DNA of 64,000 bases from the NCBI GenBank assembly GCA_964036195.1, contig OZ038460.1, positions 1,739,504-1,803,503 on the forward strand, in the 5' to 3' direction. Numbering within the stretch: position 1 is the first letter of the stretch; each line of letters opens with the position of its first letter. This stretch comes from Sphaerolaimus hirsutus (Eukaryota; Nematoda; Chromadorea; Monhysterida; Sphaerolaimidae). Below, in pieces: positions 3,626-61,139 of the stretch. Position numbers and translations under genes: made by a program. The notes under the pieces are model-generated. The model did not search any database and was not told the DNA's origin. It worked only from the letters and a program-made list of their open reading frames with translations.

Positions 3626-3902
3626 CTGGGGCACTCCCAGACCCTGCCAAATGTCATGCAGTCAAGTGTCAAAAGTTCAATGCCATACAGTCAAGTGTAA
3701 AAAGTTAAGTAGAATGCCCTGGAGAATATAAAATGTCTCGAAAAGTGTCAAAAGTCATGTCATGTAATGCCAAATTGTCATGTAAAACGACCATAAAATG
3801 GCAAACTAGTTTGCCATTTTCCACGGCATTTTCCATGGCTTTAGACACTTTGCATATCATTTGACATTTTACAGGGCATTTTACAGAGTCTGGGAGTGGA
3901 AC
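3626..3902 (-). other. Myosin intron 15, copy B, made of an inverted-repeat element
   Basis: On the sense strand the intron opens GTTCCACTCCCAGACTCTGT and closes with the reverse complement (CAGGGTCTGGGAGTGCCC) followed by CAG. The inverted repeats start at the first intron base and stop three bases before the end, where CAG matches the CAG ending the upstream exon. The interior is made of short TGTCATG/TGTAAAATG repeats. Candidate introner. Confidence 0.7.
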
Positions 3903-15353: not shown

Positions 15354-16227
15354 TCACAGCGCAGTGGGCACACTAGCGCGCCGATCCAACGACGACACCG
15401 ACGACAAAGTCACAGCCGCGTCGCTCAGCGGCGAGGCGGCGCCAGCCGACTGCGGCGGCTCCACTGGCAACACAACAGCCGCGGTGTTGACGCGCAGCGG
15501 CGACGGCAACCCCCTGGCCCTGTGCTCGCCGCCGATGGACACCATGACGGGCAGGGCGAACGCGTGCTGCACCACGTTCAAGTGCCGCAGCAGCACGGCC
15601 ACGTCGTCGGTGCTGAAGCTGGACGTGCTCTCGCCGCCGCCGCCCGCCGTCTGGCCCGACAATCGCGTCAGCAGCTGGCCAGACACGCGGCGCATGCGCG
15701 CGCGCAGCGTGTCGCCCGCGTCCACGGTCCTGGCGGCCGCCTCCTTGGCCAGGCGGCGGGCGAGCGCCTTCAAGTGCCGCTCGGTGAGCAGCGCGAGCAG
15801 CGGCGACACGACGCAGTGCAGCAGCAGGAACGGCTCGCCGCACCGGCCGAGCATGCGCCAGTGCGGCAGCAGCGCCGACAGGGGCCACGCGGGCGCCACC
15901 AAGAGCGCGCAGGCGACCGCCTTGAGCAGCACGTACACGACGGCCTTGAGCAGCTTGCGGCGCATGCACCGGCGCTGCTTGTCCGACAGCACGCGGTTGC
16001 CCAGCGCCAGCGCGTCGTTGAGCAGCCGCCGCTGCTGCCTGTACACGATGCCGAACACCAGGCCGCACAGGGTCACCGACACCAGCACCGGCGCCGTCAC
16101 CAACGCCATCATGCACGCCAGCAAGCGCAAGCTCAGCTCGCTCGGCTCAGAGTCCCACAGCAGGGTGATGAGTAGGTCGGTGGCGGCTAGACACGATGAT
16201 AGTAAGCCGATGCTGGCGGCGAGTAGC
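15354..16227 (-). CDS. Orphan rhodopsin-like 7TM receptor, exon 2, copy B
   Basis: Second copy of the receptor's terminal exon, 874 nt, intact. I noted two residue changes from copy A (Ser for Cys in LLAASIG; Asn for His in LRVNTAAV). Such low divergence with both copies open argues for alleles or a very recent duplication. Confidence 0.73.
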
Positions 16228-16294
16228 CTGCGACACAAATGCACGTCACTGAGAATTCACTGTGACAAAAAGGAAAGTGTCACAAAGTGACAAA

Positions 16295-16500
16295 GGGCCC
16301 ACACACACTAGTCGACATCGTTGGATGTCAACTAATTGCCTAACACAAAAAAATTAAAGCAGCGCGCTTAACGGAAAAAATGAAAATTATGTCACTATAT
16401 AAAATTAACTATGCTCTAGATCACATAAGAATGTTGAAATTACATATTTAACCAAATTTAGTTGATACAAATTTTGATGTCAACTAGTGTGTGAAGGGCC
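16295..16500. mobile_element. MITE, GGGCCCACACAC family, in the receptor intron (copy B)
   Basis: GGGCCCACACACACTAGTCGACATC ... GATGTCAACTAGTGTGTGAAGGGCC. Occupies about 70% of the only intron of the 7TM receptor gene; AAAGTGAC occurs just outside both ends. Confidence 0.7.
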
Positions 16501-16520
16501 AAAGTGACACCGAAACACAC

Positions 16521-16912
16521 CTATACGTTCTGGCCTTGGCGTGGCGCGCGTGCGCGAACGGCATCGACAAATAGAAGTACATGTCGGCGCTGAGCACCAG
16601 AAACGCGTGCACCGACGTCAGGTGCGCCGCCAGCCAAACTGCACGAAAAACGGGCTGCCGCAACGTAACGTCATCCAGTCCAGCCAATGCACACGCGGCA
16701 GAAACGAAGGCGCCAGCCGCCATGGTGCCTTCAGCCAGCGCCATAGCCAACAGAATGGGTATGTTCCTTTGAGCGCCGCGGCCGCCCGCAGCGCCAGGTT
16801 TGCTCTGGCGCAGGTAGGCGCCGAGCGCCAGGTGCGCCAGGCACAGCGCCGCCAAGGTGCCGTTCAGCGCCACCCCCAGCGTGCCGGCGCAGAGTAGAGC
16901 CGCTTGCAGCAT
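16521..16912 (-). CDS. Orphan rhodopsin-like 7TM receptor, exon 1, copy B
   Basis: Second copy of the receptor's first exon, 392 nt; the predicted protein is identical to copy A through residue 130. ATG at 16912; donor AG|GTGTGT. Confidence 0.73.
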
Positions 16913-17496
16913 GGTTCGGATTAGATGGTTGAGATTGCAATTTGGGCGAGGTTAGATTGGAGCCTGGGTAGTAATGTTGATGCTTTGATAAGATTGAGAC
17001 TATGGCGCCGCGCGGGATAGTGGACCGCCGAAATTTGGGAAACTCATTTTGAAACCAGTTTTGAACATATTTGAGTTCACCAGAATGGGGAGTCTGTCAA
17101 CTGCTGTTTACAACGATCAACAACTAGTCATTCTGGTAAAGTGGAATCTGTTCAAAACAGATTTAGAGTTACCAAATTTCGATGGCGTACTAGTTGACCA
17201 TAGCTCGCGATGGTTGGCATCATAAAAATGAATTATCAAATGCAAAACTGTAGGCGTCAGACCGCATGCGGGTAGAAAATGGAAACATAAATAAATCATT
17301 GCGATTTGCGTGACAGTCAACTGAGTGATAAATGAATCAAACATGATAAACTAATTAGTCACGCATTTGCATCCGAGATCAAAGTTCCACCAAAATTGAC
17401 AGTGATTAATGGGCCCACATACTCCAGATGCGCATACACTCCACATATTTAATGTCGGGAAAGTTTTTGACGTTACCGGGCCGGCTAGCATTGGAG

Positions 17497-17822
17497 GGGC
17501 CAATTCCGCAAGTGGAGACGTGAGAAGTCAAATGGCAAATGCGAAGTGTATTGAGAAGTAAAATGGCAAATGCGAAGTATATTGAGAAGTAAAATGGCAA
17601 ATGCGAAGTGTATTGAGAAGTAAAATGGCAAATGCGAAGTGTATTGAGAAGTAAAATGGCAAATGCGAAGTGTATTGAGAAGTAAAATGGCAAATGCCAT
17701 ATGTATTGAGGAGAAATTACCTTTCATTTTTTTACTTCGCTTTTGCCATGTTACTTGCCATTTTATTTCACTTTTGCCATTTTAGTTATCACTCGTCAAT
17801 TTGCGGAACGGGCACCAGGAGA
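17497..17822. repeat. CCAATTCCGCAAGTGGAG fold-back element with AAGTAAAATGGCAAATGCG units (copy B)
   Basis: About seven 31-bp units (GAAGTAAAATGGCAAATGCG-AAGTGTATTGA) bounded by GCCAATTCCGCAA and TTGCGGAACGGGCACC. Counterpart at 37470-37792. Confidence 0.75.
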
Positions 17823-17920
17823 ATCAGTGGGGTTCAGCCGGGGTATATAAACTAGAATTTATTCAATCCTAAAATTTTACCCTGAAGTTGATTGCGTAAA
17901 AGTGGATCCAAAATTAACTA

Positions 17921-18351
17921 CCGTATTTCCTCGAAATACTCCCCTTGAATTAACCCCCCCCCCCCGGAATACTCCCCTTGAATTAACCCCCCCCCTCGAA
18001 ATACCCCCAGGTGTTTTCGAGCTGAGGAAAAAAAAACCCCCTCTGGAATAAGGTACATCATGTATGCAAGGAACATGAGGTATTTATTGCGACCATTTTG
18101 CATCGCAGTTATATGCACACTAGTTTGTGTAGCGATGTAAGTTTACGTTCCTGTTATGTCCTTATATATTTTATTTGGTCACGTTTATTACCGGTTTGGG
18201 GTATGTAAAAGCGTATTCTTTATTATGACTTTTCCGAAAATTTCTGTCGAAATAATAACCCCCCCCTCGAATAAGCCCCCCCTCGAAATACCCCCTCAAA
18301 ATTTCCACTCTGAAAAAATAAAGCCCCTGGGGGTATTTCGAGGAAATACGG
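17921..18351. mobile_element. TA-target MITE, CCGTATTTCCTCGAAATA subfamily (copy B)
   Basis: Ends CCGTATTTCCTCGAAATAC/GTATTTCGAGGAAATACGG, flanked by TA. Counterpart in block A at 37886-38303, so the insertion predates the split of the copies. Confidence 0.75.
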
Positions 18352-18560
18352 TAATCTATTTCTCAATAGTGTCCAAAACTGAACATGCGCGGACCATTCC
18401 AGAGTTTTAGATATTTCGATGAAATTTCAATTTAGAATCAGTTGGAAACATAAACTTGGAGACATAATCATCCACATTTATGCGATCAATTTCGCGGCAA
18501 ACTTTTATTTTTGAATTTTACGTGGAGCCGAAATTTCAGCTTCTATACCGCAACTGAAAC

Positions 18561-19052
18561 CAGGGGTCTCCAGGATTTTGGCCCTCGCGGGGGCTGGATA
18601 GATAGCAAATCGCTCCTCCGGAGGGATAGATAGCTGGAAAAATTTTCTGGGGGGGGGGGCTGGGGGGGCTTGGGGGGGGGGGCTGGCGGGGGCACAATAT
18701 ATAGGCTTTTTCAAGGTTAAGAAGGCAGAAAGGGGAAAAAAATCGCTAATAATCAGTTAGAAGTAGCCAAAAGTAGGTATAAACTGGTTAAAAATAGATA
18801 TATAACCATGTATATAGCCGGAAAGCACGATTTTGAAGGTGAAAAACTATAAAAAGGTGCGAACATTAGTGATTTTGAGCGAAAATTGTGGCAAAATTTC
18901 TCAAAAACCACTCCAGATAGATAGCTGAGCGATTTGGGGGGGGGGGTCTTTTGGGGTAGTAGCCAAAAATTTTGCCTCGGGATAGATAGATAGCTGGCCG
19001 ATTTGGGCCCGATGGGGATAGATACCCCAGCCCCCCCCCTAGGAGACCCCTG
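18561..19052. mobile_element. hAT-like element, ends CAGGGGTCTCC, copy B only
   Basis: 492 bp, perfect duplication ACTGAAAC. Empty site GCAACTGAAACCACAATGGG in block A at about 38494. Opposite orientation to 14429-14847. Confidence 0.9.
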
Positions 19053-19578
19053 ACTGAAACCCACAATGGGAGACATCCGGAAACGGAAAAAAACTTTCCC
19101 CTAAAAACAAAAAGCCAATACACGGGTGCGTAATGGGCAGACAAAATAAAATAGGCGGACATTCTCAACCATTGTGCAAATTTCGCGTGGCCACATAAAA
19201 TATCTATTTTCAGACAAGGGCCGACATGAATAGCTGGGCTCTCGTACGACGGCCATGCAATTTAAATTAACTTGAAGCGTGACTCTATTGACACAGCGTT
19301 TGCACCGCACACACTAGTTGAATGCCAATGTCTAGGGCCCATTCCGCATCAAAGCCTATTCCGCATGTAGACCCATTATAGACACATTATGCCTGCAGGG
19401 GTAAGAAAGGGGGTGGGTAACACCTAGGGATGGAAAAAGCGCTTTTTTTAACGGCCCCGCTTTTTTTTTAAAAGCGCTTTTTTCGCTTTTTTTCAAAAAA
19501 TGTTGAGACGTTCCCCAAAAACACATTGGCTGAATATTCTATACTACACTAACATATCACCACTTAATATCACATGAT

Positions 19579-19778
19579 NNNNNNNNNNNNNNNNNNNNNN
19601 NNNNNNNNNNNNNNNNNNNNNNNNNNNNNNNNNNNNNNNNNNNNNNNNNNNNNNNNNNNNNNNNNNNNNNNNNNNNNNNNNNNNNNNNNNNNNNNNNNNN
19701 NNNNNNNNNNNNNNNNNNNNNNNNNNNNNNNNNNNNNNNNNNNNNNNNNNNNNNNNNNNNNNNNNNNNNNNNNNNNNN
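19579..19778. other. Assembly gap (200 N)
   Basis: Exactly 200 N, a typical fixed-size placeholder. It sits between the end of block B and exon 19/block A, and interrupts an element that begins TAGGGATGG at about 19424. Confidence 0.98.
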
Positions 19779-19813
19779 GTTGCCTGTGAAAAAATGTAAA
19801 ACGTATGTAAAAT

Positions 19814-20735
19814 CAAGGACGTACGCAGGGGGGGGGCGGGGGGGGCGGCCGCCCCCCCCCCGTTCCCGGGCCGGCCATAAAAATTTGCCATGAATGGCAC
19901 TTTTGTAAAGCGATTTTGTAGGCAGGGACGTATCCAGGATTTTTGAGTGGGGGGGCTGTTTGTTTACGGAGCCTCGCGAACGGGGGGGGGCTCAACCCCC
20001 CCCCCTAAAATTTTGTCTACAGTGTGACGGAATGGCGCCATGGCGCTGGCGCCATTCGTAGGCGCCACGCCATGGCGCCCATTGGCGTTGGCGCTGGCGC
20101 CAAGAGCCGCTGTATATGTATGTAAATATACATATAAACACAGCGGCAGGCACACAGACGTGGCATTTTCAGCGATATGCGCGTGCAGAGGGCGATCCGC
20201 TGAAAACACCTCATATGTTAATTAAGATTGCGCGCTTGCGCGCAAAAAATTTTATGGGTACCTTTTAAATTCCACCCCAAAATCGCATTTTCAGAGAGTT
20301 TTCTGGTCTCACCCCGGGAAGGGGGGGGGGCTGCAGCCCCCCCCGCCCCCCCCCTGGATACGTCCTTGTTTGTAGGTACTTTGAAAATTTTTGCGCGAAA
20401 GCGCGCAAACCCCACCCCGTTGTTTAATGTATACCTAATTTCAGGAGTATAAGGAGTATTTCAAACAGCATTATAAAAGTGCCCAACGTGGTCATAGTAA
20501 CTATATATAGGTCTTAATAGATACCTACATATAGTATATAGTATGTATATAGTATACGTTGGCGCCAGCGCCAACGCCAATACTGCCATGGCGCTGGCGC
20601 CTACAAATGGCGCCAGTGCCATGGCTCCATTCCTTTACTGTAGGGCCAAATTTTAGGGGGGGGCGCCGCCCCCCCCGTTCGCCGGGCTCCGTATACAATC
20701 CGCCCCCCCGCTCAAAAATCCTGCGTACGTCCCTG
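19814..20735. mobile_element. hAT-like element, ends CAAGGACGTACGCAGG, host of a nested copy
   Basis: 922 bp, perfect 8-bp duplication TGTAAAAT. Sub-terminal GGGGCGGGGG/CCCCCC blocks and GGCGCCATGGCGCTGGCGCC repeats. About 108 bp from myosin exon 19. Confidence 0.85.
19923..20368. mobile_element. hAT-like element, ends CAGGGACGTATCCAGG, nested
   Basis: 446 bp, perfect duplication TTTGTAGG, sitting inside 19814-20735, a member of a related subfamily. Confidence 0.87.
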
Positions 20736-20843
20736 TGTAAAATGTAAAAATGTGAGAAAACAACATGTGGTATACAACAAAGAAACAGTTCGTTCCGTAT
20801 CCTATTTATTAAGTGTGAAGTGAAATAAAAAGTGAACAGAAAC

Positions 20844-21000
20844 CTTGACATGATTTCTAAACGTGGCGACATCATCGCGCAGGTTGTCAATGTGCTCGCG
20901 TAACTCGAGTCGATTAGTTTCATCCAATTCAGAGTCGACCTGGGCGCCGAGCTGTTGCAGCTGAGCTAGTTGGTGCCAGGTGCGGCACATGGCGTAGATC
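20844..21000 (-). CDS. MYO6: Myosin VI exon 19 (proximal tail)
   Basis: Encodes (R)IYAMCRTWHQLAQLQQLGAQ, then a charged helical stretch (ELDETNRLELREHIDNLRDD) ending FRNHVK, residues 878-930. Position, phase (AG|G) and helical character fit the three-helix lever-arm extension just after the IQ motif. Acceptor CCCTCGTACAG, donor AAG|GTTTCT. Only one copy is in the window, at the outer edge of block A. Confidence 0.82.
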
Positions 21001-21358
21001 CTGTACGAGGGGGGTGGCAAAATTTACAGTACCGTAACTTTGTACCGGAATTTCGCCGTACCATCGACTACCCTAACCGTAACCAGGGTAGGGCATATTT
21101 TTTTTGGGGGATAGGGTTTGGAAAGATGTCATGTTTGTCATATTTAAAATCGATATTTTCAAAATTTAAATATTGATATCGAAAAGTGTTAGATATGTTA
21201 TGTGATATATCAATTTTGGTAACGATGAAAGTGAATCATGCTGCAGAAAAATTCGAAATGGCTTATGTAACAATGAAAGAGAAACCCACAGCAACAGTAG
21301 GTTTCAAAATAGCACCAAAGTAATTACTGCTTTTAGATAACACTATATTTACCATAAT

Positions 21359-21521
21359 GGCCCCACACACGCTAGTTGACATCGACACCAAATGTCAACT
21401 GGTTCCGTTCCTAATTCAAAGATTGCGTTTGAACCTCGTTCGTCCACTCGTCAGCAAGCTTTGAATCGGGATTGGCACCAGTTGACATTTGGTGTCGATG
21501 TCAACTAGCGCGTGTGGGCCC
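21359..21521. mobile_element. MITE, GGGCCCACACAC family (copy A)
   Basis: Same insertion as 735-897. Confidence 0.75.
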
Positions 21522-21634
21522 ATTTTGGTGTTAAGACATCTTTCAAAAAAATTATTTTATTATGCCATTTTTACTGGATAATGCATATGGTAAACACAAC
21601 TAATATCGAGTAGCAAGATTTAACGTTTCCCGCA

Positions 21635-22301
21635 TAGGGTTGGCCGATGTTTTTTTTTTTTTTAAACGTTTTTTTTTTTTTTTAAACATGACGTCCGAAA
21701 TGTTTTTTTTTTAAAAAAACATCAGCCAAAATTTTTAGTACTAAGCACTAGGTATTTTGCAAAATTTTTGCGCGCAAGCGCGCAATTTCACACACAAATT
21801 GACATTGGTGGTTGTTTTCATTGGTTTTGTTGCATTTTTAGTATCAAAACATCCATTTCTATGTGCTACCATGGGTGAATAAGCTGACATATGTTGCTGT
21901 AATATATATATTGAGGTAATGTGCTTCCATGTACCTCCACAGTGTGTAACTTCACTCCCAAAGTAACAACCTCCTTCTATAACCTTGTTTGATAACCATT
22001 CCGTGCCAAACTTTACCTGAAGTCACGAACATTCGACTATAAGGCGATATACGAACGATATGTCGACGAAAAATGGATATTTTTGACACAAATCACCACT
22101 TATAATGCTATCCCATGGCTCCACAGCCATTATATGGTCATATTTAACATCACAGAGTATTGCCAGTGTCTGATATACCTATATATGTTGACACTAGGTC
22201 ATATCTGGGAGCTTTAAAAAAAAAACGTTTTTTTTTTTAAAAAACGTTGTTTTTTTTAAAAAAAACATCGAGTTAAAAAAAACGTTTTTTTTCCAACCCT
22301 A
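21635..22301. mobile_element. hAT-like MITE, ends TAGGGTTGG, copy A only
   Basis: 667 bp with perfect 8-bp duplication TTCCCGCA. Block B has the empty site TTACCGCA at about 1007. The terminal regions are T/A homopolymer hairpins (TTTTTTTTAAACGTTTTTTT). The core carries a conserved about 500-bp sequence with no coding potential that recurs in the other copies. Confidence 0.9.
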
Positions 22302-22343
22302 TTCCCGCACCAATTTCACGCGCAAAACTAACAGAAAACCCAC

Positions 22344-22573
22344 CGATGCCTATGTCTACACCTCTCCAAGAACCCCTCACAGCTGTCTGAACCACGATCA
22401 AGTGCGCACAGCGCCACTTAATTTTCTCGCGCAACTTTATAACCATCCAAGTGCCATATTGAGCCTTGCGCCATCTACTACGAAGGAGCCATTGATGCAC
22501 GGCGGCGAGAAGAAAGGAAACGTTTGAGGGGTCCGAACGGACTAGTTTGTCGAATTCGGCGAATTTGCCCCGT
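22344..22573 (-). pseudogene. MYO6: Myosin VI exon 18, copy A (neck), frameshifted
   Basis: Encodes (R)RGKFAEFDKLVRSDPSNVSF and WLLRSRWRKAQYGTWMVIKL: the reverse-gear insert and the IQ/calmodulin-binding neck unique to class VI. It is 230 nt against 231 in copy B. A run of four C at 22373-22376 replaces five C in copy B, so the frame breaks after TAVRG and the last 11 or so codons are lost, disrupting the join to exon 19. This could be a true allele defect or a homopolymer sequencing error. The acceptor run is 10 C (16 in copy B). Confidence 0.85.
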
Positions 22574-22608
22574 CTGAGGGGGGGGGGTTGATTATGTAAA
22601 GCAATGTA

Positions 22609-23495
22609 CATGGTCCGGCTGAAAAGTCCCCGGGCAGTGCTCGCCATTCGCGCTAGGGGTAAGCTACGGTCATAAAATTTTAACACTTTAATATATGAGG
22701 TGTTTTGAGTTTTCATCCAAAATTTTACCACTCTAGCTCCACCCACTGCGGAACTGTGGGTGTTACAATTTCGGTCATTTTGTACTGATGTACAAATGAT
22801 GCTCTAGCTCAATGCTGCTTTAAGTTGTGATCATGAAACTTTGGCTAGTGTAAGCCACCAGTGTTGGCAATGTGCCAGCCCTAACCAACATTAGCTATGA
22901 TATCATAAGCCCAGTCAATATTGTCATTACTGTCACTACTCTCACTACAGAATTCATCATTCACCACAAAAGTGGTTAATACAGGATGCATTTTGCATGC
23001 ACACTGCTGTTGAACACAGGTAATGAAACATAGGGAAATTTTTAAAATACATACATCACTAACTTACTGCACATTTCAAAATAACATTAAAATCACTGCA
23101 ATACAACATGATCTCAGATGATCACCAAAAACATCCATCACAGTTCCCACGTTTTTTGCACATCACCCTGATCTGCATATAAATTTTACCTTATCAGAAA
23201 TGATGTTGATAAGTGTTGAATATCATCAGCACATTGCCAACACTGGTGGCTTACACTAGCCAAAGTTTCATGATCACAACTTAAAGCAGCATTGAGCTAG
23301 AGCACCATTTGTACATCAGTACAAAATGACCAAAATTGTAACCCCCACAGTTCCGCAGTGGGTGGAGCTAGAGGGGTGAAATTTTGGGTGGAAACTCAAA
23401 ACACCTGATACATTAAAGTGCTAAAATTTTATGAACGTAACTTACCCCTAGCGCGAATGGCGAGTACTGCCCGGGGACTTTTCAGCCGGACCATG
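22609..23495. mobile_element. Long-inverted-repeat TA element, copy A only
   Basis: 887 bp, TA flanks, ends CATGGTCCGGCTGAAAAGTC. Arms of about 270 bp are near-perfect inverted copies, separated by a unique AT-rich core of about 340 bp. Block B lacks it. Mariner-like ends, no ORF. Confidence 0.8.
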
Positions 23496-23921
23496 TACAA
23501 TGCAGATCACACGTTAAAACCGATGATTGAGTAACGTTACGGAAGGGTTTATGTGTAAATATATACAGTTATATATGCCTATAAACACATATAAATCTAT
23601 GTAATTGTTTGATTTTTCTACGTCTGAGTATGGGGAATTTCCAAAAATTTCTGGCGAAATAATAGACCCCCCTCGAATGACCCCCCCCTGAAATTTTGCT
23701 GGCAAAATAAAAAAAACCTGGGGGTATTTCGAGGTAATACGGTATGTTGCAAATAATGGTATTTCATAAAAATTCTGACGAAATAATAACCCCACCTCGA
23801 AAAAGCCCTCCCATAATTAACCCCCAAAAAGATTTGCTGGTGAAAAAATAAAACCCCAGGTAAATTAAGTGATAGTTAAGTTTAGAGATGAAAATACTTC
23901 TCATCATTGTGAAAGGCGTAC

Positions 23922-23989
23922 CTGAAAAAAACTTTAGTCAAGCCAAACTTGAAGTCCATGTCGTTCAGCCCGAGCGCTTTGAACAGACA
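23922..23989 (-). CDS. MYO6: Myosin VI exon 17, copy A (converter end)
   Basis: A 68-nt exon encoding [20 protein letters not shown] then FF(R), residues 779-800. [11 protein letters not shown] closes the converter. Acceptor CCGTGCACAG, donor TTTCAG|GTACGC, phase 2. Confidence 0.93.
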
Positions 23990-24291
23990 CTGTGCACGGT
24001 AAAATTAATTGGTGCAAATATCTCGATACTTCTTCTCTGGATAACTTTTTTTTCAAGATTACCGATATCGATATCAATGTGTAGTTACTTGTCGCAAATT
24101 GACAAATTGCCATTTTCAAGCTGAATTATTTTGTCAAAACCCATATTTCTTCACACCAAATGACGTGCATTAGCTTTCAAATTTCTCTTTTGAATTCATC
24201 CCAAAAGACAAAAATATTAGCTACATTATTATCAACATTAAGAATCGACACTAATTAGAAAACCCTTCAATCAACACCCCAAATTTCCAAC

Positions 24292-24449
24292 CCTGCAAAA
24301 AAGTCTCGGGTCCAATCTCTTCAATCTTTCGTCGGGCATAGCCGCCGCATAGGTATCATAAAGTCGGGCAAAATTTGTCCGGCACGGGAAACCCGACTGC
24401 ATAAGCTTCACAGCGCTCAAAGTGCCCGAACAGCGTAATTGCGACAAAA
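24292..24449 (-). CDS. MYO6: Myosin VI exon 16, copy A (SH1/converter)
   Basis: Encodes (V)LSQLRCSGTLSAVKLMQSGF, then PCRTNFARLYDTYAAAMPDE and RLDPRLFCR, residues 726-778. QLRCSG contains the reactive SH1 cysteine region; the rest is converter, including the LDPRLFC block typical of class VI. Acceptor GTGCCCCAG, donor AGG|GTTGGA, phase 0. Confidence 0.93.
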
Positions 24450-24843
24450 CTGGGGCACTCCCAGACTCTGTCAAATATCCTGTCAAATGTCATGCAGTCA
24501 AGTGTCAAAAGTGAAATGTCATGCATAGGGTTGGAAAAAACGTGTTTTTTTAAATAAAACGTTGAAAAAAACATCGGCCAACCCTAGTCATGCAGTCAAG
24601 TGTAAAAAGTTAAATGTCATGCAGTCAAGTGTAAAAAGTTATGTAGAATGTTCTGGAGAATATAAAATGTCTCGAAAAGTGTCAAAAGTCATGTCATGTA
24701 ATGCCAAATTGTCATGTAAAACGCCCGTAAAATGCCAACCTAGTTTGCCATTTTCCACTGCATTTTCCATGGCTTTAGACACTTTGCATAACATTTAACA
24801 TTTGACATTTTACAGGGCATTTTACAGAGTCTGGGAGTGGCAC
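24450..24843 (-). other. Myosin intron 15, copy A, made of an inverted-repeat element
   Basis: Same structure as 3626-3902: sense ends GTGCCACTCCCAGACTCTGT and ACAGAGTCTGGGAGTGCCC plus CAG. It is longer because of extra TGTCATGCAGTCAAG repeats and a 61-bp MITE (24526-24586). Confidence 0.7.
24526..24586. mobile_element. hAT-like MITE, TAGGGTTGG family, 61-bp derivative, copy A only
   Basis: Only the hairpin termini remain (TAGGGTTGGAAAAAACG ... ACATCGGCCAACCCTA), yet the 8-bp duplication GTCATGCA is perfect. Sits inside intron 15. Confidence 0.88.
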
Positions 24844-24913
24844 CTGATGCGCCGTCGAAGTTCAATGGACGCATGTGCGAGTTCGGCTTGACGCAGCGGA
24901 TGAAGTGCACTTC
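24844..24913 (-). CDS. MYO6: Myosin VI exon 15, copy A
   Basis: A 70-nt exon encoding EVHFIRCVKPNSHMRPLNFD, then GAS, residues 703-725. (H)FIRC(V/I)KPN is the SH1-helix approach found in all myosins. The exon ends TCAG, directly abutting intron 15, whose two ends are inverted repeats. The copy A donor is GTGCCA; copy B has GTTCCA. Confidence 0.93.
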
Positions 24914-25100
24914 CTGGGAGCGATTTTAATTACGCAATTGAAAAGTGACGGAAAAGTGGTAAGTGGTAAATACAGTTATAAATATGTCTAAATTAAGTAC
25001 AAGTTATTTGTAATTGAGAATACTTGTCGCATATTGCACTTTGAACACTCTTCTGAGTTGACATTTTTGTTATCAAGTATAAAGCTGCGTAATTAGCACG

Positions 25101-25271
25101 AGAGCAGTCCCGCACCCTGTGAAGTGTAAAGTAAAGTGTCAAATGTCATGTAAAATGGCATATAAATTTGTCAAATGTGATGCAAAGTGGCAAAACTTCA
25201 GTAACAGTCTTTTCTTATATTTTAATGGACATTTCACAATTTGACACTTGACAGGGTGCTAGACTGCCCCC
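25101..25271. mobile_element. Fold-back element, GCAGTCCCGCACCCTGT family (copy A)
   Basis: Allelic counterpart of 4161-4332, present at the same site in intron 14. Confidence 0.6.
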
Positions 25272-25296
25272 TGAACAACCCCCACCCCCACCCCAC

Positions 25297-25530
25297 CGTA
25301 TTCTTCAATTTCTCCAAAAGCTCATTCAACTGCTTTCTAAACTTCGCCGCCAAACTCGGCGCGGCCAATTTTCTGCCGCCCTTTTTCGCTGGACTCCCCG
25401 CTGGACTCGCCGCGGCGGCAGAATTTGTGCAGTCGGCGTAGAGAAGTTTTATGAGAGGGGAGGCGGAGTCTATGAGGATTGCCGTGAGCCAGTCGTGCAG
25501 GGCGTCGTTGTTCTTGGACAGGAACGAGTG
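25297..25530 (-). CDS. MYO6: Myosin VI exon 14, copy A (loop 2)
   Basis: Encodes HSFLSKNNDALHDWLTAILI to NELLEKLKNT, residues 625-702. The middle (residues about 660-690: AAAASPAGSPAKKGGRKLAA) is the positively charged actin-binding loop 2, rich in Ala, Pro and Lys. The acceptor follows eleven C (fourteen in copy B). The donor ACG|GTGGGG is in phase 0. Confidence 0.92.
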
Positions 25531-25927
25531 CTGCGGGGGGGGGGGTACTTGGTTTGAGATGTTTTTTTGTTGTTTTTGTCGCGGCGATTTACCGTACATG
25601 TAAATTGACAAACAAAATACTACCATCACAGATATCAATGTAAGAATATACCTATCCTTGTAGTTAAATACGTAAAGTCTACCGTTACTGGCTGCATCTC
25701 TACCATATTGCACCTGAATGCAGTGCCAGAATCCAACGTTTCTTCCAATGTTTTTAGGCACGCTCTTTTCACTGTAGTAAATTTCAACAACAATTCTTTA
25801 CAGCACGAACATCCGAGTAAGTATGTCACTGCACACTTGACATCAAAATTTATACCATATCCCATCTAATGTAAAGACTAAAAAATAACTCCAGAAAGAA
25901 CATCAGAAATACAGAAGATTCTATCTG

Positions 25928-26203
25928 GGACCAGTTCCGCAAAATGAGAAGTGAGAGTGAAATGGCAAAGGCGAAGTGAAAGCGCAAAGGCGAAGTGAAA
26001 CGGCAAGTGAATTGGCAAAAGCGAAGTAAAAAAATAAAAAAGTAATTTCTCTTCGCGTTTGCCGTTTCACTTGCAAATTCACTTGCAATTTCAGTTCGCC
26101 TTTGCGCTTTTACTTCGCATTTGCCATTTCACTTCTCACTTCTCATTTCACTTCACATTTGCCATTTCACTTCTCACTTCTCATTTTGCGGAACTGGGCC
26201 CTG
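25928..26203. repeat. Fold-back element, unexpanded allele (copy A)
   Basis: Same site and ends as 4979-6472, with only a few units per arm. Confidence 0.85.
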
Positions 26204-26235
26204 GTCACATAGAAAAAATAACAAAATGTACACAC

Positions 26236-26323
26236 CACGGTGTAGCACACGGCGCCGGCGTAGTGCCTCACCACGAAGCCGTGCTGGTCGGGCATGCGGC
26301 GGTGCACTTTCAGCACGGACTTC
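26236..26323 (-). CDS. MYO6: Myosin VI exon 13, copy A
   Basis: Encodes (R)KSVLKVHRRMPDQHGFVVRH, then YAGAVCYTV, residues 595-624. YAGAVCY is the conserved strand of the upper/lower 50K domain. The donor was set at GTG|GTGTGT because this keeps the family's spacing to KNNDAL in exon 14. Confidence 0.92.
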
Positions 26324-26365
26324 CTGCGATCAGATGCAATTTCCCAATTTTCCAAATTACACTTA

Positions 26366-26653
26366 CCGTATTACCTCGAAATACACCCAGGGGGTTTATT
26401 ATTTAGCCAGCAAAATTTGAGGGGGGATAATTCGACGGGGGGTTTATTCGAGGGGGGGGGGTCATATATAACTGTATATACACATAAACCCTTCCCTAAC
26501 ATCACTCAATCATCAGTTTTAACGTGTGTTCTGCATTGTACAGATCAAAAACTGTGGTATTTGTCATGTACGTTCTCTTCATACTCAATTTTAGGGGGGT
26601 ATTTCGAGGGGGGGTTTATTCAAGGGGGAGGGGGTTAATTCGAGGTAATACGG
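26366..26653. mobile_element. TA-target MITE, copy A only
   Basis: TA-flanked CCGTATTACCTCGAAATACA...CGAGGTAATACGG. Block B has the empty site AATTACACTTAGGTAGTCC at about 6630. It lies in myosin intron 12, just upstream of exon 13. Confidence 0.85.
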
Positions 26654-26721
26654 TAGGTAGTCCAAAAATCGCCAATTTTTGCAATGCCCGACAATATACA
26701 GATAGAGTGCAAAAATGCACT

Positions 26722-26800
26722 ACCGGAAGCGGGAATCGAACCCGCGCCTCGTATAGAAAACGAGCGCCACAACTGCCGGACCACAGACCACAGTGGCGGC
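26722..26800 (-). repeat. tRNA-derived SINE head (copy A)
   Basis: On the minus strand, GTGGTCCGGCAGTTGTGG resembles a pol III A box, followed 35 nt later by the B box GGTTCGATTCC inside the stem GCGGG...CCCGC. The acceptor stem cannot pair, so this is not a functional tRNA. Followed by a tail matching TGCACTCTATCTGTAT. Counterpart at 6702-6781. Confidence 0.6.
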
Positions 26801-26907
26801 TGGGCTCTAGTCACTAGTAGGGGCTGATATGCTGCGACGGCAATGCCCTTAAACTTTACATCAAACAACCCGACAAAACCATTTGTCGGGCTAACCAAAC
26901 CCCTCAC

Positions 26908-27043
26908 CTAGGAACAGCCAGGCGGTTATGGGTCGCATTTGCCCGATGCGCCTCCGTGGCAAAATGGTCGGGTGAAGGGCGCGGCAATTTTGCCTCCTCG
27001 TCGAGCAGCGCCAAAAGCCCGCTGGGCATCCGCTCGAACAGAT
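26908..27043 (-). CDS. MYO6: Myosin VI exon 12, copy A
   Basis: Encodes (D)LFERMPSGLLALLDEEAKLP, then PSPDHFATEAHRANATHNRL, ending AVPR, residues 550-594. It aligns with the LLDEE...LP.PS..HF segment after the relay helix. Acceptor ATCACTCAG, donor CCTAG|GTGAGG, phase 2. Confidence 0.92.
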
Positions 27044-27642
27044 CTGAGTGATGTTTGGGGGGATTTTTGGGTTGAAGATAATCACGTTTTTGAATACTCC
27101 ACGGCAGATTTTTACTCTTTCCATTTAACGTGAACTTTGAGTAATGATAACATTATTGTTGATTACAGTGCGCGCACTTATTTTTATGCGCATCGCCACT
27201 CAAATAAGACTCCGCCCACTTTCGTGTAAATGCCCGCGAGGGCCGTCCGTCGAAAATTGCGGATTTATCGTCAGGCTCGCCTTTTTTGTGTGTGGGCTCA
27301 ATAAAGACAGTTAAATTTCTACATTTTCTTACATTTGACGCACGTAATATTAGCACTCTGTGCGTACGCTCGACCCACAATTCCCATTTTCAAGCGCGTG
27401 GTGGGCCTCGAAAAGTTGGTAAAAATCACAAGTTTGTATAGGGAAAACGACGCGCGTGGCCGAGCCAAATTCACGTGTGGTTTTAAGCTGTAGGCTGGCG
27501 CGAGTGCGCGGAGTAACAGTGGCACTTGGCTAGGTGCCAATACGCACAGGAATTTCTGCGCGCACTTTAGGTAGCGTGAATTTTATTCGAAATCGAAAAG
27601 AAACACAGCGCAACTTTTCTGTGTGCAACGACATAAACAAAC

Positions 27643-27807
27643 CAATGCAGTCTGCATTGTCATCGAATTGTATCGGGGCAACGTGCAAACCTTCAGCCTC
27701 GTACAAATTCTGCTCATTCCTCAAAATGCGCTCATTAAAAAACTGCTGCAACTTCTCGTTGCTGTAGTTGATGCAGAACTGCTCGAAGCTGTTGTCGACG
27801 AAAAATT
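27643..27807 (-). CDS. MYO6: Myosin VI exon 11, copy A (relay helix)
   Basis: Encodes (E)[28 protein letters not shown] and [16 protein letters not shown], residues 495-549. This is the relay helix that carries ATPase changes to the converter. Acceptor TCTCAG. The donor GTTTGT is weak, but the phase fits exon 12 (G|AT = Asp). Confidence 0.92.
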
Positions 27808-28114
27808 CTGAGACAAATTATGTGTGTGCTGTATATTTTTGAATAACACACCCACCGCTAATCAGAAAATACGTGTAAAATTACGGGACGGAAAAGTAGC
27901 CTATTCTTGAATGACCCCCCCCCCTCCTTCGGAAATTAAATAGCTGGACAGAATGGCAGAATTTATCGGGGGGTGTGGCGTACTTTGGTGCCCTCAAATG
28001 GCGCCATTCCATCACTAATCATTTGTATATTTGATGTTTTTGGAGGGGGGTCGCAGAGGTTCAATATATGGGGTTTTTCAAGCTTTAGAAGAAAAAAGGA
28101 GAAAAATCACTAAA

Positions 28115-28184
28115 CCCTTGTTTACCTCGATCCGGATGGTTGTGAATTTTTTTTAAACGTTTCGTTCACGCCCCCCTGTTAGAT
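28115..28184. mobile_element. Terminal fragment of the CCCTTGTTTACCTCGATCCGG element, copy A only
   Basis: About 70 bp matching the left end of 53317-54596 (through CGTTTCGTTCACGCCCCCCTG). Absent from block B. Confidence 0.6.
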
Positions 28185-28545
28185 TTAGATACATAAATAT
28201 GTAGATAGCTCTGGAGCGTTTGGGGGTTAACCCAACCCCCCTCCAACCTCCCATACTGAACCCCTGCAGTGCCCATGAAGACCAAGTGCTCAATTATGGG
28301 GGCCGTACCCGAGCACCAGGATTTACATTGGCACCGGACATTGTTACTTGTGCACCGGGTTTACTTGTGCACTGGTCCTGCGCCGAATTTACCGTACCGT
28401 ACCCTCTACCGTAATTATGGAAATTTACCGTACCGAACTGTCAATCGCAAGATTGAAGATTTACCGTATTCGGTGAAAACAAACCTTACCGCACCGTTTA
28501 CCGCCCTACCGCCGACAACTTGAAACCCCATTACCCCCCACCCAC

Positions 28546-28703
28546 CAAATCCGGCAATATCCAATACGCCAATGTAAGCGACGCTGTCCCCGGTGGGCAC
28601 GCTGGAGTTGATCAAGCCAACCACGTAATCGAACAGTCTCGAATAAATCGACTTCGCTAGGGCGTCGCGGGCCGCGCATGCTTCGTGTCGTTTCAGGGGT
28701 ACC
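28546..28703 (-). CDS. MYO6: Myosin VI exon 10, copy A (switch II)
   Basis: Encodes RVPLKRHEACAARDALAKSI, then SRLFDYVV and YIGVLDIAGF, residues 442-494. Acceptor is AATACCCAG, donor is GTGGGT in phase 1; the split codon G|AA completes DIAGFE. This is the nucleotide-sensing switch II region. Near-identical copy at 8584-8741. Confidence 0.93.
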
Positions 28704-29403
28704 CTGGGTATTTGGGTATTGGGTATTTGGAGTGGGTATACTTTTGGGGCGCAGTGAGTATTTGGAAGGGTTGATTCCAAAAATACATATCATGTTTAGA
28801 ATATTTCACAAAGAAATCGATTTTGAGAAATTATGTGTTGAAAGTTGAGGCAAGTAAATGTATGGCACGGTATTCTAAAGTTGGAAAAAAGTGATGCACA
28901 GTGAAATCAATTAAATTAAATCAATTTTTTTGCAGATTGTTACTTTTGCAACCATATTTTGAAAGCAGGTAAGCAGTTATGGACGCACACTATTAAAAGA
29001 AATTTTGTCTGGGTTGTATTTATTGGGCTTTCGGGAAAGTTTTTTTTCCGTTTACGGCTCGTCTTCCATTGTATCGGCCGGGGTTGTGACGTTTTTCCGG
29101 GGTGTGTAAGCTGGAATTACAGCTCCACATAATTTTCGAGAATAAAAATTTAAAAACTGTGAAATTGAATGCATAAAAGTGGATGTCTCCAACTTTATCT
29201 TCCCAACTGATTTTACACAGAAAATTTATTGAAAAATCGAAAGCTCCAGAAATGGTGGAATGAGCACGTTGAGTTCTGGACATTATTAAGAGATGAATTA
29301 GTACTGGATGCATTTTTATGAAATCAATTTCGATTTAAAATTAAATGTTTGTATAAATTCCAACTTATATACACCGGCTGAAGCCCCCGAGGATCGTCCA
29401 GGA

Positions 29404-29891
29404 CAGGGGTTTAGTAGGGGGGGGGGGGGGTTGGGGGGGGGGTTACCCCCCCCCCCAAATCCGCCAGCTATCTATCTATCCCGGACTCCCGCTCAGCTAT
29501 GTATCTATCCCGGAGGCAAAATTTTTGGCTACTACCCCCTAACCCCCCCCCCCCAAATCGTCCAGCTATCTATCTGAAGCAATTTTTGAACAAATTTCGC
29601 TTAAAATCGCTAATTTTCGTACCTTTTTATAGTTTTTCACCTTCAAAATCGCTAGTTCATGTTCATTATCGCCTATTTTGGCTATATATGTGCTTAAATA
29701 CTTATTTTTAGCTATTTTTCACCTACTTTTAGCGATTTTTCCCCCTTTTCTTCCTTCTATACCTCTGAAAACCCTATATATTGAACCCCCGCGAACCCCC
29801 CCCAGAAAATTTTTTAGCTATCTATCCCTCCGGAGGAGCGATTTGCTATCTATATGAACCCCCTCGGGGGTCCAAATCTACAAAACCCCTG
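29404..29891. mobile_element. hAT-like element, CAGGGG family (copy A)
   Basis: Counterpart of 9853-10337 with the same duplication; homopolymer lengths differ. Confidence 0.85.
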
Positions 29892-30361
29892 GTCCAGGAC
29901 GATCCAATGCGAGACGAAAAGGAAACGGAAAGAACTTTCCCGACAGCCCAATACTTCAATTGCTGTTTTCAAGGAAAAATTGCCGTTTTGACGGAAAAAT
30001 TGCTGTTTTCAAGGAAAATTGCTGTTTTCACGGAAAAATTGCTGTTTTCAAGGAAAATTGCTGTTTTCACGGAAAAATTCAAGGAAAAAATGCCGTTTTC
30101 AAGGAAAAATTTCAAAAAAGGGAGCTTTAATCAAAGTGGAATTGGTGGTCAGTAGGTATTTATGTTGATTGTCAATTGCCTAGTTACCGTGGAATTTACA
30201 AATCAAATTGCATCGCACTGCATTACATTGCACGTGTTGCCAAACAGCATAGGCATCCCTATTTACATGTCTACAATTAAACCCATTTTCAAAATTTTGT
30301 AATTTGTTTATTTTTTATTTATTTTCCGATGTTTATAAGTATTTGTGTTTAGTAATGCATT

Positions 30362-30606
30362 GGCCCTACACACACTAGTTTTCACCGTGACTTGTGTGAA
30401 AACTGAAATGGCCACATGGCGACATCCAGCATACTCTTATTGTATGCTATACTTGTTTTAGTTTTAAAATTTTCAAATTTTTACTTCCATTAATTTAAAT
30501 TCACATTAAAATAAAAATCAATCATTCAACCGTGTTGATTAATCTGCACTTGAAAAAAAAATCAGTTTTCCCACGAAGTCACGGTGAAAACTAGTGTGTG
30601 TGGGCA
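30362..30606. mobile_element. MITE related to the GGGCCCACACAC family, copy A only
   Basis: GGCCCTACACACACTAGTTTTCACCG ... CACGGTGAAAACTAGTGTGTGTGGGCA. Block B at about 11728 has the empty site TAATGCAATGATG. Sub-terminal sequence differs from the main family (TTTTCACCGTGAC instead of TTGACATCG). Confidence 0.7.
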
Positions 30607-30754
30607 CAATGATGTGGCGGTTTTTTCTGACCATTTCAACACGAGACATAAAAAGAGCCATACCGCTTTTACGTCACTGTGTCTATTTGTGTAAATATTA
30701 AGCTGGAACTGTTGTAAATATCATCACTGCACGCGGTTGTTTTGCTTTAATATA

Positions 30755-31026
30755 CCGTATTTGCTGGAATAATTCCCCCCTCTTCAATAATCTCCTGTTA
30801 AATCAGTGAGGAAAACATACCCCCCCCCCCACTCAGGCGTATGATAAATTTGTTGTGCCCAATTTGAACAAAAACGACATGTTATCGTGTTAATTAGGCA
30901 TATTTCGTGAAATAAGTTGATAGAAACATGCTTGAAATTTTTGACGCAATAAAAATCCCCCCTCCCTTGAAAAGACTGGTGAAAAAATAATATAATTGCC
31001 CCGGGGAGTGTTTCAAGCAAATGCTG
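30755..31026. mobile_element. TA-target MITE, shared site (copy A)
   Basis: Counterpart of 11873-12313 without the nested insertion. Confidence 0.65.
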
Positions 31027-32180
31027 TGAAAAATGGCGGTTTTCAAATGCAATTTACTCTCCCCCACCAATTAGGGCTCGCTTGTAAGTGTATAATAATT
31101 TGTAAATATTAAAATTGTCTACGGCGTTTAAAACCGATTCATTTTGAATTCACATGAGCACAATCAATAAATCAAAAAGACATATATAGAAGACTAATTT
31201 GCAACACATTTTCCTAGCGTAATTGAACTCAAAGTAATGTAAATAAATAATGTGTGTGAAGTGAATGGCGGGAATGAAATGATTATGTGAATGTGATATG
31301 TGGATAGATGTACACAAGCACAATGTAAATAGTGAAGAAATACTCGTAACACAATTCACTGAATAACTCATAATAACTGCAGTATTTAAGCTACTAATTA
31401 AATACACAAAAACAATTATGCACTGATCAACACACTTTTAATATAAAAGGAATGATTCAAAAGACCCATGGCGCATGGCACCAGTAATGTTTTTGAGACA
31501 CAACTCTCAATAAAGTTATAATCAAAAGCGCGACAGAAAATTAAATGGCACAGCTGCCAAAATCACATTTGGATGGCGGCTCGCCAAAAAAGTCACAACT
31601 TTGCCTACACAAAATAGTTTCCTACCAAAAAATTGGAAAACTCATATATCAGCTTTGTATGCACTTCAGTTAACTGGAAGAAGTCATTCCTTTTGTTCAA
31701 CAACAGAAGTTGACAGACACATGATTTTGGTAAACTCAAATCCGTTTAAATCTGATTTATGTGTCCTCCAATTTTTAGGAAATTTCGGTAGAAAACTAGC
31801 GTGTGTGAAGGGGATAAAAAACGAAGTTGCACAAGATTAATCATGAGATCATGATAGACCCTTCAAAAAAATATAATACTACACAAAAACATTGCCAGTG
31901 GGGCTAAAAAAACCCAAGTTTTCACCTATCTCAAGTAATTTTTTCTCAGAGAAATAAAAACATAAAATTGCTCAGCTGAATTTGAAATCGAAATCATAAA
32001 CATTTGAATGCAGTGAATGGCAATGGTTGATGACCATCATCTATGTTCAAACTTGATACGAACAAAAATCTGAATATTTTTTTTGTTGGAAGAAATACAC
32101 AAATTATCTTTAAAAAAATCGTTTTCTCAACTTGTACCAAGCTTGAACCTAGACACCAAAAAAAACAACCCAAAAATATA

Positions 32181-33054
32181 TCACAGCGCAGTGGGCACAC
32201 TAGCGCGCCGATCCAACGACGACACCGACGACAAAGTCACAGCCGCGTCGCTCAGCGGCGAGGCGGCGCCAGCCGACTGCGGCGGCTCCACTGGCAACAC
32301 AACAGCCGCGGTGTGGACGCGCAGCGGCGACGGCAACCCCCTGGCCCTGTGCTCGCCGCCGATGGACACCATGACGGGCAGGGCGAACGCGTGCTGCACC
32401 ACGTTCAAGTGCCGCAGCAGCACGGCCACGTCGTCGGTGCTGAAGCTGGACGTGCTCTCGCCGCCGCCGCCCGCCGTCTGGCCCGACAGTCGCGTCAGCA
32501 GCTGGCCCGACACGCGGCGCATCCGCGCGCGCAGCGTGTCGCCCGCGTCTACGGTCCTGGCGGCCGCCTCCTTGGCCAGGCGACGGGCGAGCGCCTTCAA
32601 GTGCCGCTCGGTGAGCAGCGCGAGCAGCGGCGACACGACGCAGTGCAGCAGCAGGAACGGCTCGCCGCACCGGCCGAGCATGCGCCAGTGCGGCAGCAGC
32701 GCCGACAGGGGCCACGCGGGCGCCACCAGGAGCGCGCACGCGACCGCCTTGAGCAGCACGTACACGACGGCCTTGAGCAGCTTGCGACGCATGCACCGGC
32801 GCTGCTTGTCCGACAGCACGCGGTTGCCCAGCGCCAGCGCGTCGTTGAGCAGCCGCCGCTGCTGCCTGTACACGATGCCGAACACCAGGCCGCACAGGGT
32901 CACCGACACCAGCACCGGCGCCGTCACCAGCGCCATCATGCACGCCAGCAAGCGCAAGCTCAGCTCGCTCGGCTCGGAGTCCCACAGCAGGGTGATGAGT
33001 AGGTCGGTGGCGGCTAGGCACGATGATAGTAAGCCGATGCAGGCAGCTAGCAAC
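32181..33054 (-). CDS. Orphan rhodopsin-like 7TM receptor, exon 2, copy A
   Basis: Residues 131-421: TM4 (about 132-155), TM5 (about 162-193), a basic third loop (RQQRRLL...KQRRCMRRK), TM6 (about 223-252, with the class A proline in LLVAPAWPL) and TM7 (about 261-279). TM7 has SPLLAL in place of NPxxY. A long Ser/Ala/Gly-rich C-tail ends VPTAL and then TGA. Acceptor is GTGTCGCAG. Third codon positions are very GC-rich, unlike the AT-rich surroundings, which creates long shadow ORFs on the other strand. Confidence 0.75.
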
Positions 33055-33118
33055 CTGCGACACAAATGCACGTCACTGAGAATTCACTGTGACAAAAAGG
33101 CTATCACAAAGTGACAAA

Positions 33119-33324
33119 GGGCCCACACACACTAGTCGACATCGTTGGATGTCAACTAATTACCTAACACAAAAAAATTGAAGCAGCGCGCTTAACGGAA
33201 AAAATGTAAATTATGTGACGATATAAAATTAACCATGCTCTATATCACATAAGAAAGTTGAAATTACATATTTAACCAAATTTAGTTGATACGAATTTTG
33301 ATGTCAACTAGCGTGTATAAGGCC
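33119..33324. mobile_element. MITE, GGGCCCACACAC family, in the receptor intron (copy A)
   Basis: Same insertion as 16295-16500. Confidence 0.7.
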
Positions 33325-33344
33325 AAAGTGACACCGGAACACAC

Positions 33345-33736
33345 CTATACGTTCTGGCCTTGGCGTGGCGCGCGTGCGCGAACGGCATCGACAAATAGAA
33401 GTACATGTCGGCGCTGAGCACCAGGAACGCGTGCACCGACGTCAGGTGCGCCGCCAGCCAAACTGCACGAAAAACGGGCTGCCGCAGCGTGACGTCATCC
33501 AGTCCAGCCAATGCACATGCGGCAGAAACGAAGGCGCCAGCCGCCATGGTGCCTTCAGCCAGCGCCATAGCCAACAGAATGGGTATGTTCCTTTGAGCGC
33601 CGCGGCCGCCCGCCGCGCCAGGTTTGCTCTGGCGCAGGTAGGCGCCGAGCGCCAGGTGCGCCAGGCACAGCGCCGCCAGCGTGCCGTTCAGCGCCACGCC
33701 CAGCGTGCCGGCGCAGAGTAGAGCCGCTTGCAGCAT
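33345..33736 (-). CDS. Orphan rhodopsin-like 7TM receptor, exon 1, copy A
   Basis: With 32181-33054 this makes a 421-residue protein with seven hydrophobic segments. This exon encodes residues 1-130: TM1 (about 5-33, with Asn in LGVALNGTL), TM2 (about 51-79, LAMALAEG, Glu where Asp is usual) and TM3 (about 88-119). TM3 ends SADMYFYLSMPF, which aligns with the class A (D/E)RY...P block but has Met for Arg. The N-terminus is very short, so an upstream exon may be missing. The donor is AG|GTGTGT, phase 2. It lies inside myosin intron 9 on the same strand. A 7TM fold is well supported; ligand and subfamily are unknown. Confidence 0.75.
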
Positions 33737-37295: not shown

Positions 37296-37469
37296 GCCAG
37301 CGCTTTTTTTAAAAAAGCGCTGGGACCTTTGCGCTTTTTTTTTAAAAAGCGGCGTTTAAAAAAAAAATCGCTTGCCATCCCTAGCCCACATACTCCAGAT
37401 GCGCATACACTCCACACATTTAATGTCGGGAAAGTTTTTGAACGTTTCCGGGCCGGCTAGCATAGAAGG

Positions 37470-37792
37470 GGCCAGTTCCGCAAGTGGAGACGTGAGAAGT
37501 AAAATGGCAAATGCGAAGTGTATTGAGAAGTAAAATAGCAAATGCGAAGTGTATTGAGAAGTAAAATGGCAAATGCGAAGTGTATTGAGAAGTAAAATTG
37601 CAAATGCGAAGTGTATTGAGAAGTAAAATGGCAAATGCGTAGTGTATTGAGAAGTAAAATGGCAAATACGAAGAGAAATTACTTTTTTATTTTTTTTACT
37701 TCGCTTTTGCCAATTTACTTCCCATTTCACTTCACTTTTGCCATTTTAGTTCTCACTTGTCAATTTGCGGAACGGGCACCAGGAGGATCAGT
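37470..37792. repeat. CCAGTTCCGCAAGTGGAG fold-back element (copy A)
   Basis: Counterpart of 17497-17822. Confidence 0.75.
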
Positions 37793-47833: not shown

Positions 47834-48068
47834 GTGCCGGTTCCGCAAGTGGAAAAGTTAAGAGTGAAGAGTTTTAACTCTTAAAAGAGTTGAGTGAAAT
47901 GATAAATGATAAGTGAAGAGTAAAATTAAAAGTTAAGAGTTGAGTAAAATCATTTGTCGTTTTACTCAACTCTTAACTCTTAAATTTTCTCATAACTTGC
48001 CATTTGTCATTTTACTCAACTCTTAAGTTTTAACTCTTAACTTTTCCACTTGCGGAACTGGCCCCTGG
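47834..48068. repeat. GTTCCGCAAGTGG fold-back element, AAGAGTTGAGT units
   Basis: CCGGTTCCGCAAGTGGAAAAG ... CTTTTCCACTTGCGGAACTGG. Interior of GTTAAGAGTTGAGTAAAAT and its inverse; the same termini as 4979-6472. Confidence 0.75.
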
Positions 48069-60496: not shown

Positions 60497-61139
60497 CTGT
60501 AAAAATAAAAGGTCTATTTCACATTTGTAACTAGTTGGTTGTTTCAAATGTCATGCAATTTTGCAATCAGAATGAAACAAACAATTTTATTACTGAACTT
60601 TTGACACTTTGCATAACATTTGACAAATGCTTATGACATTTTACATGACATTTACTTTTCAAAATTTACTTTACACTTTACAGGATGCGGGACTGCTATC
60701 AGGTGCCAATAACAGACCCTGTAAAATGCCTTGTAAAGCCGTCAAAGTTAATCAAAGGTCATGTAAAATGCCGTGTAAAAATGGCAAACGTACGTTTTTC
60801 AAGGGAACATTCCACCACTTAAGACACTTTGTATGACATTTGACATTTATCCCATGGTGAAAACAATTTATCCTTTAGGGTGCAAAGTATCGTTTTTTAT
60901 TCATGATTCAGATTGCAGATATCTATGCACAATGCGTTCGGTAGATAATACCGTCATTTGTATAAAAACAATCATTTTATAAGATTACCATAAAGTACTC
61001 CCACGATGTATAAAGTCAAAACAATCATTTACAAAAATAATTCTAAACAAAAAGCTTCCCAATCCATCGCTCAATCCACTCAAGGCAAAACTAGTACACT
61101 ATTTGGCACTGTGCCAAACTTTCTCAACTCATCCCTCAC

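Follow-up and report, generated by a model that had tools for sequence, protein, structure and literature searches.

A myosin VI intron of the nematode Sphaerolaimus hirsutus that probably originated as a MITE inserted at an exonic CAG

Results

A myosin VI gene with part of its exons present twice

The analyzed window, a stretch of 64,000 bp from the Sphaerolaimus hirsutus assembly GCA_964036195.1 (contig OZ038460.1, positions 1,739,504 to 1,803,503), carries a class VI myosin gene on its minus strand. The exons were located by tblastn, with a class VI myosin bait as the query, and the splice sites were then placed by hand. Eighteen exons join into a single open frame in block A (see below), the final ones encoding the lever arm, and the assembled protein matches Myosin_head (E 8.9e-205) and MYO6_lever (E 3.1e-07), and the segment encoded by exons 10-16, with introns 10-15 between them, matches solved myosin VI with 367 bits. 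No convincing tail exons were found by tblastn of the window. All 17 introns of the gene are GT-AG; a non-canonical exon 16/17 junction was considered and dropped, the donor being AGG|GTTGG and the frame open. Intron 9 extends over 26 kb and has an N gap inside. In both blocks it also harbors a two-exon gene on the minus strand (15354-16951 and 32181-33775), whose product, judged by eye, seems to be a membrane protein with several passes (seven-helix-like); Pfam returned a sub-threshold huntingtin match and nothing else, and the intron of this gene holds an inverted-repeat element located away from the splice sites.

Exons 10-18 are present twice, in block A (28.7-22.4 kb) and in block B (8.7-1.1 kb), and exons 10-16 are open in both. 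The two blocks flank a gap of 200 N (19579-19778), and positions 1-19578 are 92-97% identical to positions 19779-38500 in aligned blocks of at least 400 bp. They are likely two unmerged alleles scaffolded side by side, although they may instead be a true duplication. Given this identity and the position of the blocks on either side of the N gap, the block B copy of intron 15 is homologous by descent to that of block A, so that one insertion is seen twice. The blocks differ by MITE insertions, for example one at 26364-26655 in A only, held by an intron 12 of 584 bp (295 bp in B), and one at 8992-9411 in B only. In block B, positions 12398-13841 are taken up by an element of 1.4 kb with long inverted arms, for which the corresponding part of block A has no room. 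A long inverted repeat at 53314-54599 runs across the second 200-N gap (54045-54244), and is perhaps the cause of the assembly break there.

Anatomy of intron 15

In block A, intron 15 (24450..24843, minus strand) is 394 bp long and transposon-like over its whole length between the splice sites (GTGCCACTCCC...GGGAGTGCCCCAG), whereas the allelic or duplicate copy of this insertion in block B (3626..3902, minus strand) has 277 bp. Exon 15 (24844..24913 in A, 3903-3972 in B, minus strand), delimited by tblastn and reading frame, ends ...GGC GCA TCA G, and exon 16 (24292..24449 in A, 3468-3625 in B, minus strand) reads TT TTG TCG ... TGC AGG. On the minus strand, intron 15A starts with GTGCCACTCCCAGACTCTGT directly after exonic ...GGCGCATCAG, and terminates ...ACAGAGTCTGGGAGTGCCCCAG, followed by TTTTGTCG; intron 15B starts with GTTCC... 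and ends with GCAGGGTCTGGGAGTGCCCCAG. The 5' end of the element (24824..24843, minus strand) consists of the donor GTGC (24843..24840) and an inverted-repeat arm, CACTCCCAGACTCTGT (24839..24824), and the 3' arm is ACAGAGTCTGGGAGTG (24456..24471, minus strand). According to the preliminary description of this locus, the sense strand closes with the reverse complement of its 20-bp start; this is true of the inner bases, complementary at 16 of 16 positions in block A and at 14 of 15 in block B, but not of the outermost four, which read GTGC (GTTC in B) against GGGG. The CAG ending the intron (24450..24452, minus strand), at once the acceptor and the proposed second copy of a 3-bp target duplication, repeats the last three bases of exon 15 (24846..24844), as had been claimed and as direct reading of the sequence confirms. 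A nested small element (TAGGGTTGG...CCAACCCTA; 24526..24586, minus strand), found in block A only, is flanked, as judged by eye, by an 8-bp duplication, TGCATGAC.

With up to three mismatches allowed, the 20-mer terminus has three matches in the window, all at ends of introns 15A and 15B (0.00 expected from 100 shuffles), and the 15-mer CACTCCCAGACTCTG has four, which are the four intron 15 ends with at most one mismatch each; shuffled sequences contained on average 0.55 matches to the 15-mer, and none contained four. The same 15-mer occurs in 29 stretches of viral_contigs, with one match in each, taken as chance.

The coincidence of inverted ends with splice sites was assessed by counting inverted pairs that match at 15 or more of 20 positions and come within 6 nt of the splice site at either end of an intron. 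A total of 439 inverted pairs in the window pass the 15/20 threshold. Among 19 intron copies (11 positions), inverted ends at both splice sites were found in introns 15A and 15B only, where random placement predicts 0.013 over the 19 copies and about 0.008 with one copy per position (11). No such pair occurs in the remaining six positions, introns 4-9, which come in addition to the 19 copies that the expectation of 0.013 covers; the overall count is 2 of 25 intron copies, or 1 of 17 positions. When about 3000 random 394-bp segments of the window were compared, ends as complementary were found in 0.24% of them for 15A (p 0.0024) and in 0.81% for 15B (p 0.0081); as this null is inflated by the window's own inverted repeats, the placement test was used in addition. 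As first proposed, intron 15 is a transposon-like element with inverted ends at both splice sites, no more than 6 nt from either in both blocks. The statement that copy B shows the same stands for the inverted ends at both splice sites, but copy B does not count as an independent insertion, being homologous by descent.

Related elements in the window

No other whole intron was seen to be similar to intron 15; its related copies sit within introns. With copy B as the query, the matches outside its own loci, to intron 1 with 53.6 bits and to intron 14 with 46.4 bits (block B) and 41.9 bits (block A), surpass all 200 dinucleotide shuffles (at most 34.6 bits), in agreement with the earlier view that the family is mobile. 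Elements with GGGGGCAGTCCCGCACCCTGT-like ends had also been reported elsewhere in the gene, and both ends were found in both blocks. The intron 14 element lies at 25101..25270 in A and at 4162-4331 in B (minus strand). In intron 1, a relict on the plus strand (60703..60789) has an end, CAG|GTGCCAATAACAGACCCTGT, close in sequence to the start of intron 15, and it adjoins an intron-14-like relict (60699 leftwards) via one common CAG.

Three further elements have termini near GKGCCMGTTCCGCA and a common layout, and are tied to intron 15 by the terminus only. The first, in intron 13, covers 273 bp in block A (25928..26200, minus strand, GGCCCAGTTCC...GGAACTGGTCC) and about 1.5 kb in block B (4980-6469, minus strand), where it is expanded by a minisatellite with a spacing of about 76 bp. 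The second, at 37469..37779 on the plus strand (17497-17815 in block B), has one GGGCC and one GTGCC end, and the third, at 47834..48064 on the plus strand, has one GTGCC and one GGGCC end. Overall, the 20 listed element ends start with GGG, GGC, GGA, GTG, GTT, AGA or ATA. Since GTGCC is also the terminus at three non-splice ends (60703, 47834 and 37779), the donor of intron 15 looks like a recurrent trait, and not like a change in that copy alone. A terminus profile built from these same ends revealed no further confident copy in the window (next best E 0.17).

Flanking triplets

Counting one allele per locus, with ends picked by eye from searches of the window, a CWG triplet (CAG or CTG) stands directly before the terminus, read inward, at 8 of 10 non-splice ends, or at 7 of 9 when the triplet shared in intron 1 is counted once; the two exceptions are ACG (3' end in intron 14) and AAG (37469). 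CWG was found at 0 of 10 ends in each of 12 shifted registers, and the window background is 2.5% of positions. An exact 3-bp direct duplicate flanks two of the five two-ended elements, those of intron 15 and, in block A only, intron 13, both with CAG on either side; in the B allele of the latter the 3' flank differs (CCG read inward), and the match is lost or lacking. The flanks of the elements at 37469 (AAG/CAG; GAG/CAG in block B) and 47834 (CAG before the first end and CTG after the last, differing at W) are one base off, and those in intron 14 (5' CAG, 3' CGT) are not duplicates.

Splice consensus itself favors a CAG ahead of the donor and another at the acceptor, so that the CAG at both edges of intron 15 would alone be weak evidence for a target duplication; the presence of CWG at non-splice copies helps to break this tie. 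Where AG stands on both sides throughout an introner family, a duplication is indistinguishable from the insertion site (PMC9860276). A hAT-like CAGGG terminus, in which CAG would lie within the inverted repeat, was considered and dropped, as the inward flanks include both CAG and CTG and a direct duplication fits better; the element at 47834-48064, with CAG at both ends read inward, is a better fit to the dropped reading.

Splicing, reading frame and predicted hairpin

Joining of the outer splice sites (D1/A1) gives FDGASVLSQL, which is gap-free in four solved myosin VI alignments among the matches listed, and retention of intron 15 brings a frame shift and stops in both blocks. Judging from this restoration of the frame, intron 15 would be spliced at its outer sites. 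Its donor, GTGCCA in A and GTTCCA in B, is weak, without the G at +5 that is present in 14 of the 16 remaining introns (all but introns 2 and 7). Inner sites lie 18 nt in from either end, a donor TCT|GTAAAA (D2) and acceptors (A2) TTTGACAG in A and TTTGGCAG in B. Combining one outer with one inner site (D1/A2 or D2/A1) keeps the frame and is stop-free in both blocks, with six additional residues, whereas both inner sites together give a stop in block A, and no stop but twelve additional residues in block B. The RNA of intron 15, extended by 20 nt into either exon, is predicted to fold with the inverted ends paired (z -8.30 in A and -4.05 in B), and 0 of 100 shuffles were as stable in either block. 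There was no match in Rfam at gathering thresholds, and no tRNA was predicted by ARAGORN.

Discussion

Affinity to CWG-targeting transposons

NuwaI transposons (PHIS: PIF/Harbinger, ISL2EU, Spy) make CWG duplications confirmed by empty sites, have TIRs of 12-61 bp that usually start with GGG, and are reported from 16 animal genomes (12 bony fish, a beetle, a crustacean, a mollusc and an anthozoan), and from animals only (PMC4482050). Autonomous members of this type encode a DDE transposase and a Myb/SANT protein; no transposase was seen with the elements in the window. These resemble NuwaI in the CWG target triplet, in an inverted repeat length within this range and, roughly, in termini that often read GGG; they differ in being short and seemingly non-coding, in the GTG that several have in place of GGG at one end, and in that exact target duplications are a minority among them. 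By flanks and termini, they are likely NuwaI-type, Harbinger-related elements targeting CWG.

Origin of intron 15

Landing of a mobile element in coding sequence, with subsequent removal by splicing, is a known route of intron gain. Intron 15 is probably a MITE, a non-autonomous DNA transposon, that entered the coding sequence at an exonic CAG and is now spliced out. A CWG-targeting, Harbinger-related transposase, putatively of NuwaI type, would have cut ...GCATCAG|TTTTG... and caused duplication of the CAG. With the GTGCC terminus oriented to the upstream exon, CAG|GT would become the donor, and the duplicated CAG past the other end of the element the acceptor, in the layout CAG|GTGCC...CCC|CAG. 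Splicing would take out the element together with one CAG and bring back the pre-insertion mRNA, which would make the insertion cost-free for the protein. Through the hairpin, the two outer splice sites probably come to lie next to each other, with the inner GT and AG that compete with them masked. The preliminary description had already suggested birth by insertion into coding sequence with a CAG duplication. Independent support for such an introner-like origin comes from CWG at the non-splice relatives, from the terminus shared with the intron 1 relict and from the exact restoration of the frame; against the duplication part of the claim stands that the 3-bp duplicate is exact in only two of the five two-ended elements, intron 15 included. 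Both blocks contain the element, and neither provides an empty site. The flanking 97-residue protein had no relative in viral_contigs and genome_contigs, neither of them a collection of eukaryotic genomes, and the accessible part of the literature on myosin gene structure (PMC5583752) gives no class VI intron coordinates.

It is unlikely, if still conceivable, that intron 15 is an old intron in which a MITE inserted and whose flanks were later trimmed by deletions to the element edges. The elements inside introns 1, 13 and 14, which stop short of the splice sites, indicate that insertion into existing introns is common in this gene; trimming, however, needs two deletions that each halt at an element edge, a coincidence for which the placement expectation is 0.013 over 19 intron copies, and the CAG on either side of intron 15 agrees with the flanks of the other copies. 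Less probable still is an exonic transposon insertion in which splicing uses an inner GT or AG, so that part of the element is coding. The inner donor and acceptors do exist, and either combination with an outer site is in frame and free of stops in both blocks, but the added residues would fall in a stretch aligned gap-free to solved myosin VI, use of both inner sites would introduce a stop in one of the blocks (A), and the inner sites sit in the predicted stem. An ordinary intron with ends complementary by chance or through local palindrome formation, without transposition, is very improbable despite the abundance of inverted repeats in the window (439 pairs at 15/20), as copies at other loci match its termini and interior above 200 shuffles and related ends have CWG flanks.

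Comparison with introners

Introners were found in 175 of 3,325 genomes, and among animals and land plants in two groups only, both of them animals; a family was defined by at least four similar introns per genome, and the described layouts include an element-borne donor with a co-opted acceptor (PMC9860276, the layout in the Fig. 2C legend). A MITE origin of intron 15 would agree with this picture in that a non-autonomous DNA element occupies the intron end to end, with inverted ends and a short direct repeat, and in that the donor comes with the element while the acceptor is co-opted, leaving the mRNA length unchanged. It differs in number, as the survey's families comprise at least four introns and here there is one intron in one examined gene. 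Introners of Amoebophrya have inverted repeats of 8-20 nt and direct repeats of 3-5 nt and are mostly non-canonical introns (PMC7789003), whereas intron 15 is GT-AG. Harbinger does not appear in the main text of the introner survey (PMC9860276); in open-access literature, a fungal paper was the only match for introners together with Harbinger, and no link of Nuwa or CWG elements to introns was found. Intron 15 of myosin VI would share a MITE-like intron origin in an animal with the introns of the larvacean Fritillaria, which are reportedly attributed to MITE-like insertion; the splice sites there are said to be largely non-canonical, in contrast to the GT-AG of intron 15.

Implications

Intron 15 is a credible case of introner-like intron gain, a single one in an animal gene, and the element behind it looks like a CWG-targeting MITE. 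How introns originate is an old open question and, if this reading is right, here is an animal intron in which the transposon is still legible, and a transposon type that by its choice of target alone accounts for the appearance of both splice sites at once. Introns of the form CAG|GTGCC...GGCCC|CAG would then be expected genome-wide. In elements of this kind the target CAG would lie at the heart of both splice junctions, and the change of a single base, from GGG to GTG at the terminus, would complete the donor. More tentatively, and with the balance rather against it, NuwaI-like MITEs might be ready-made introners in general and may have created many introns genome-wide in this lineage.
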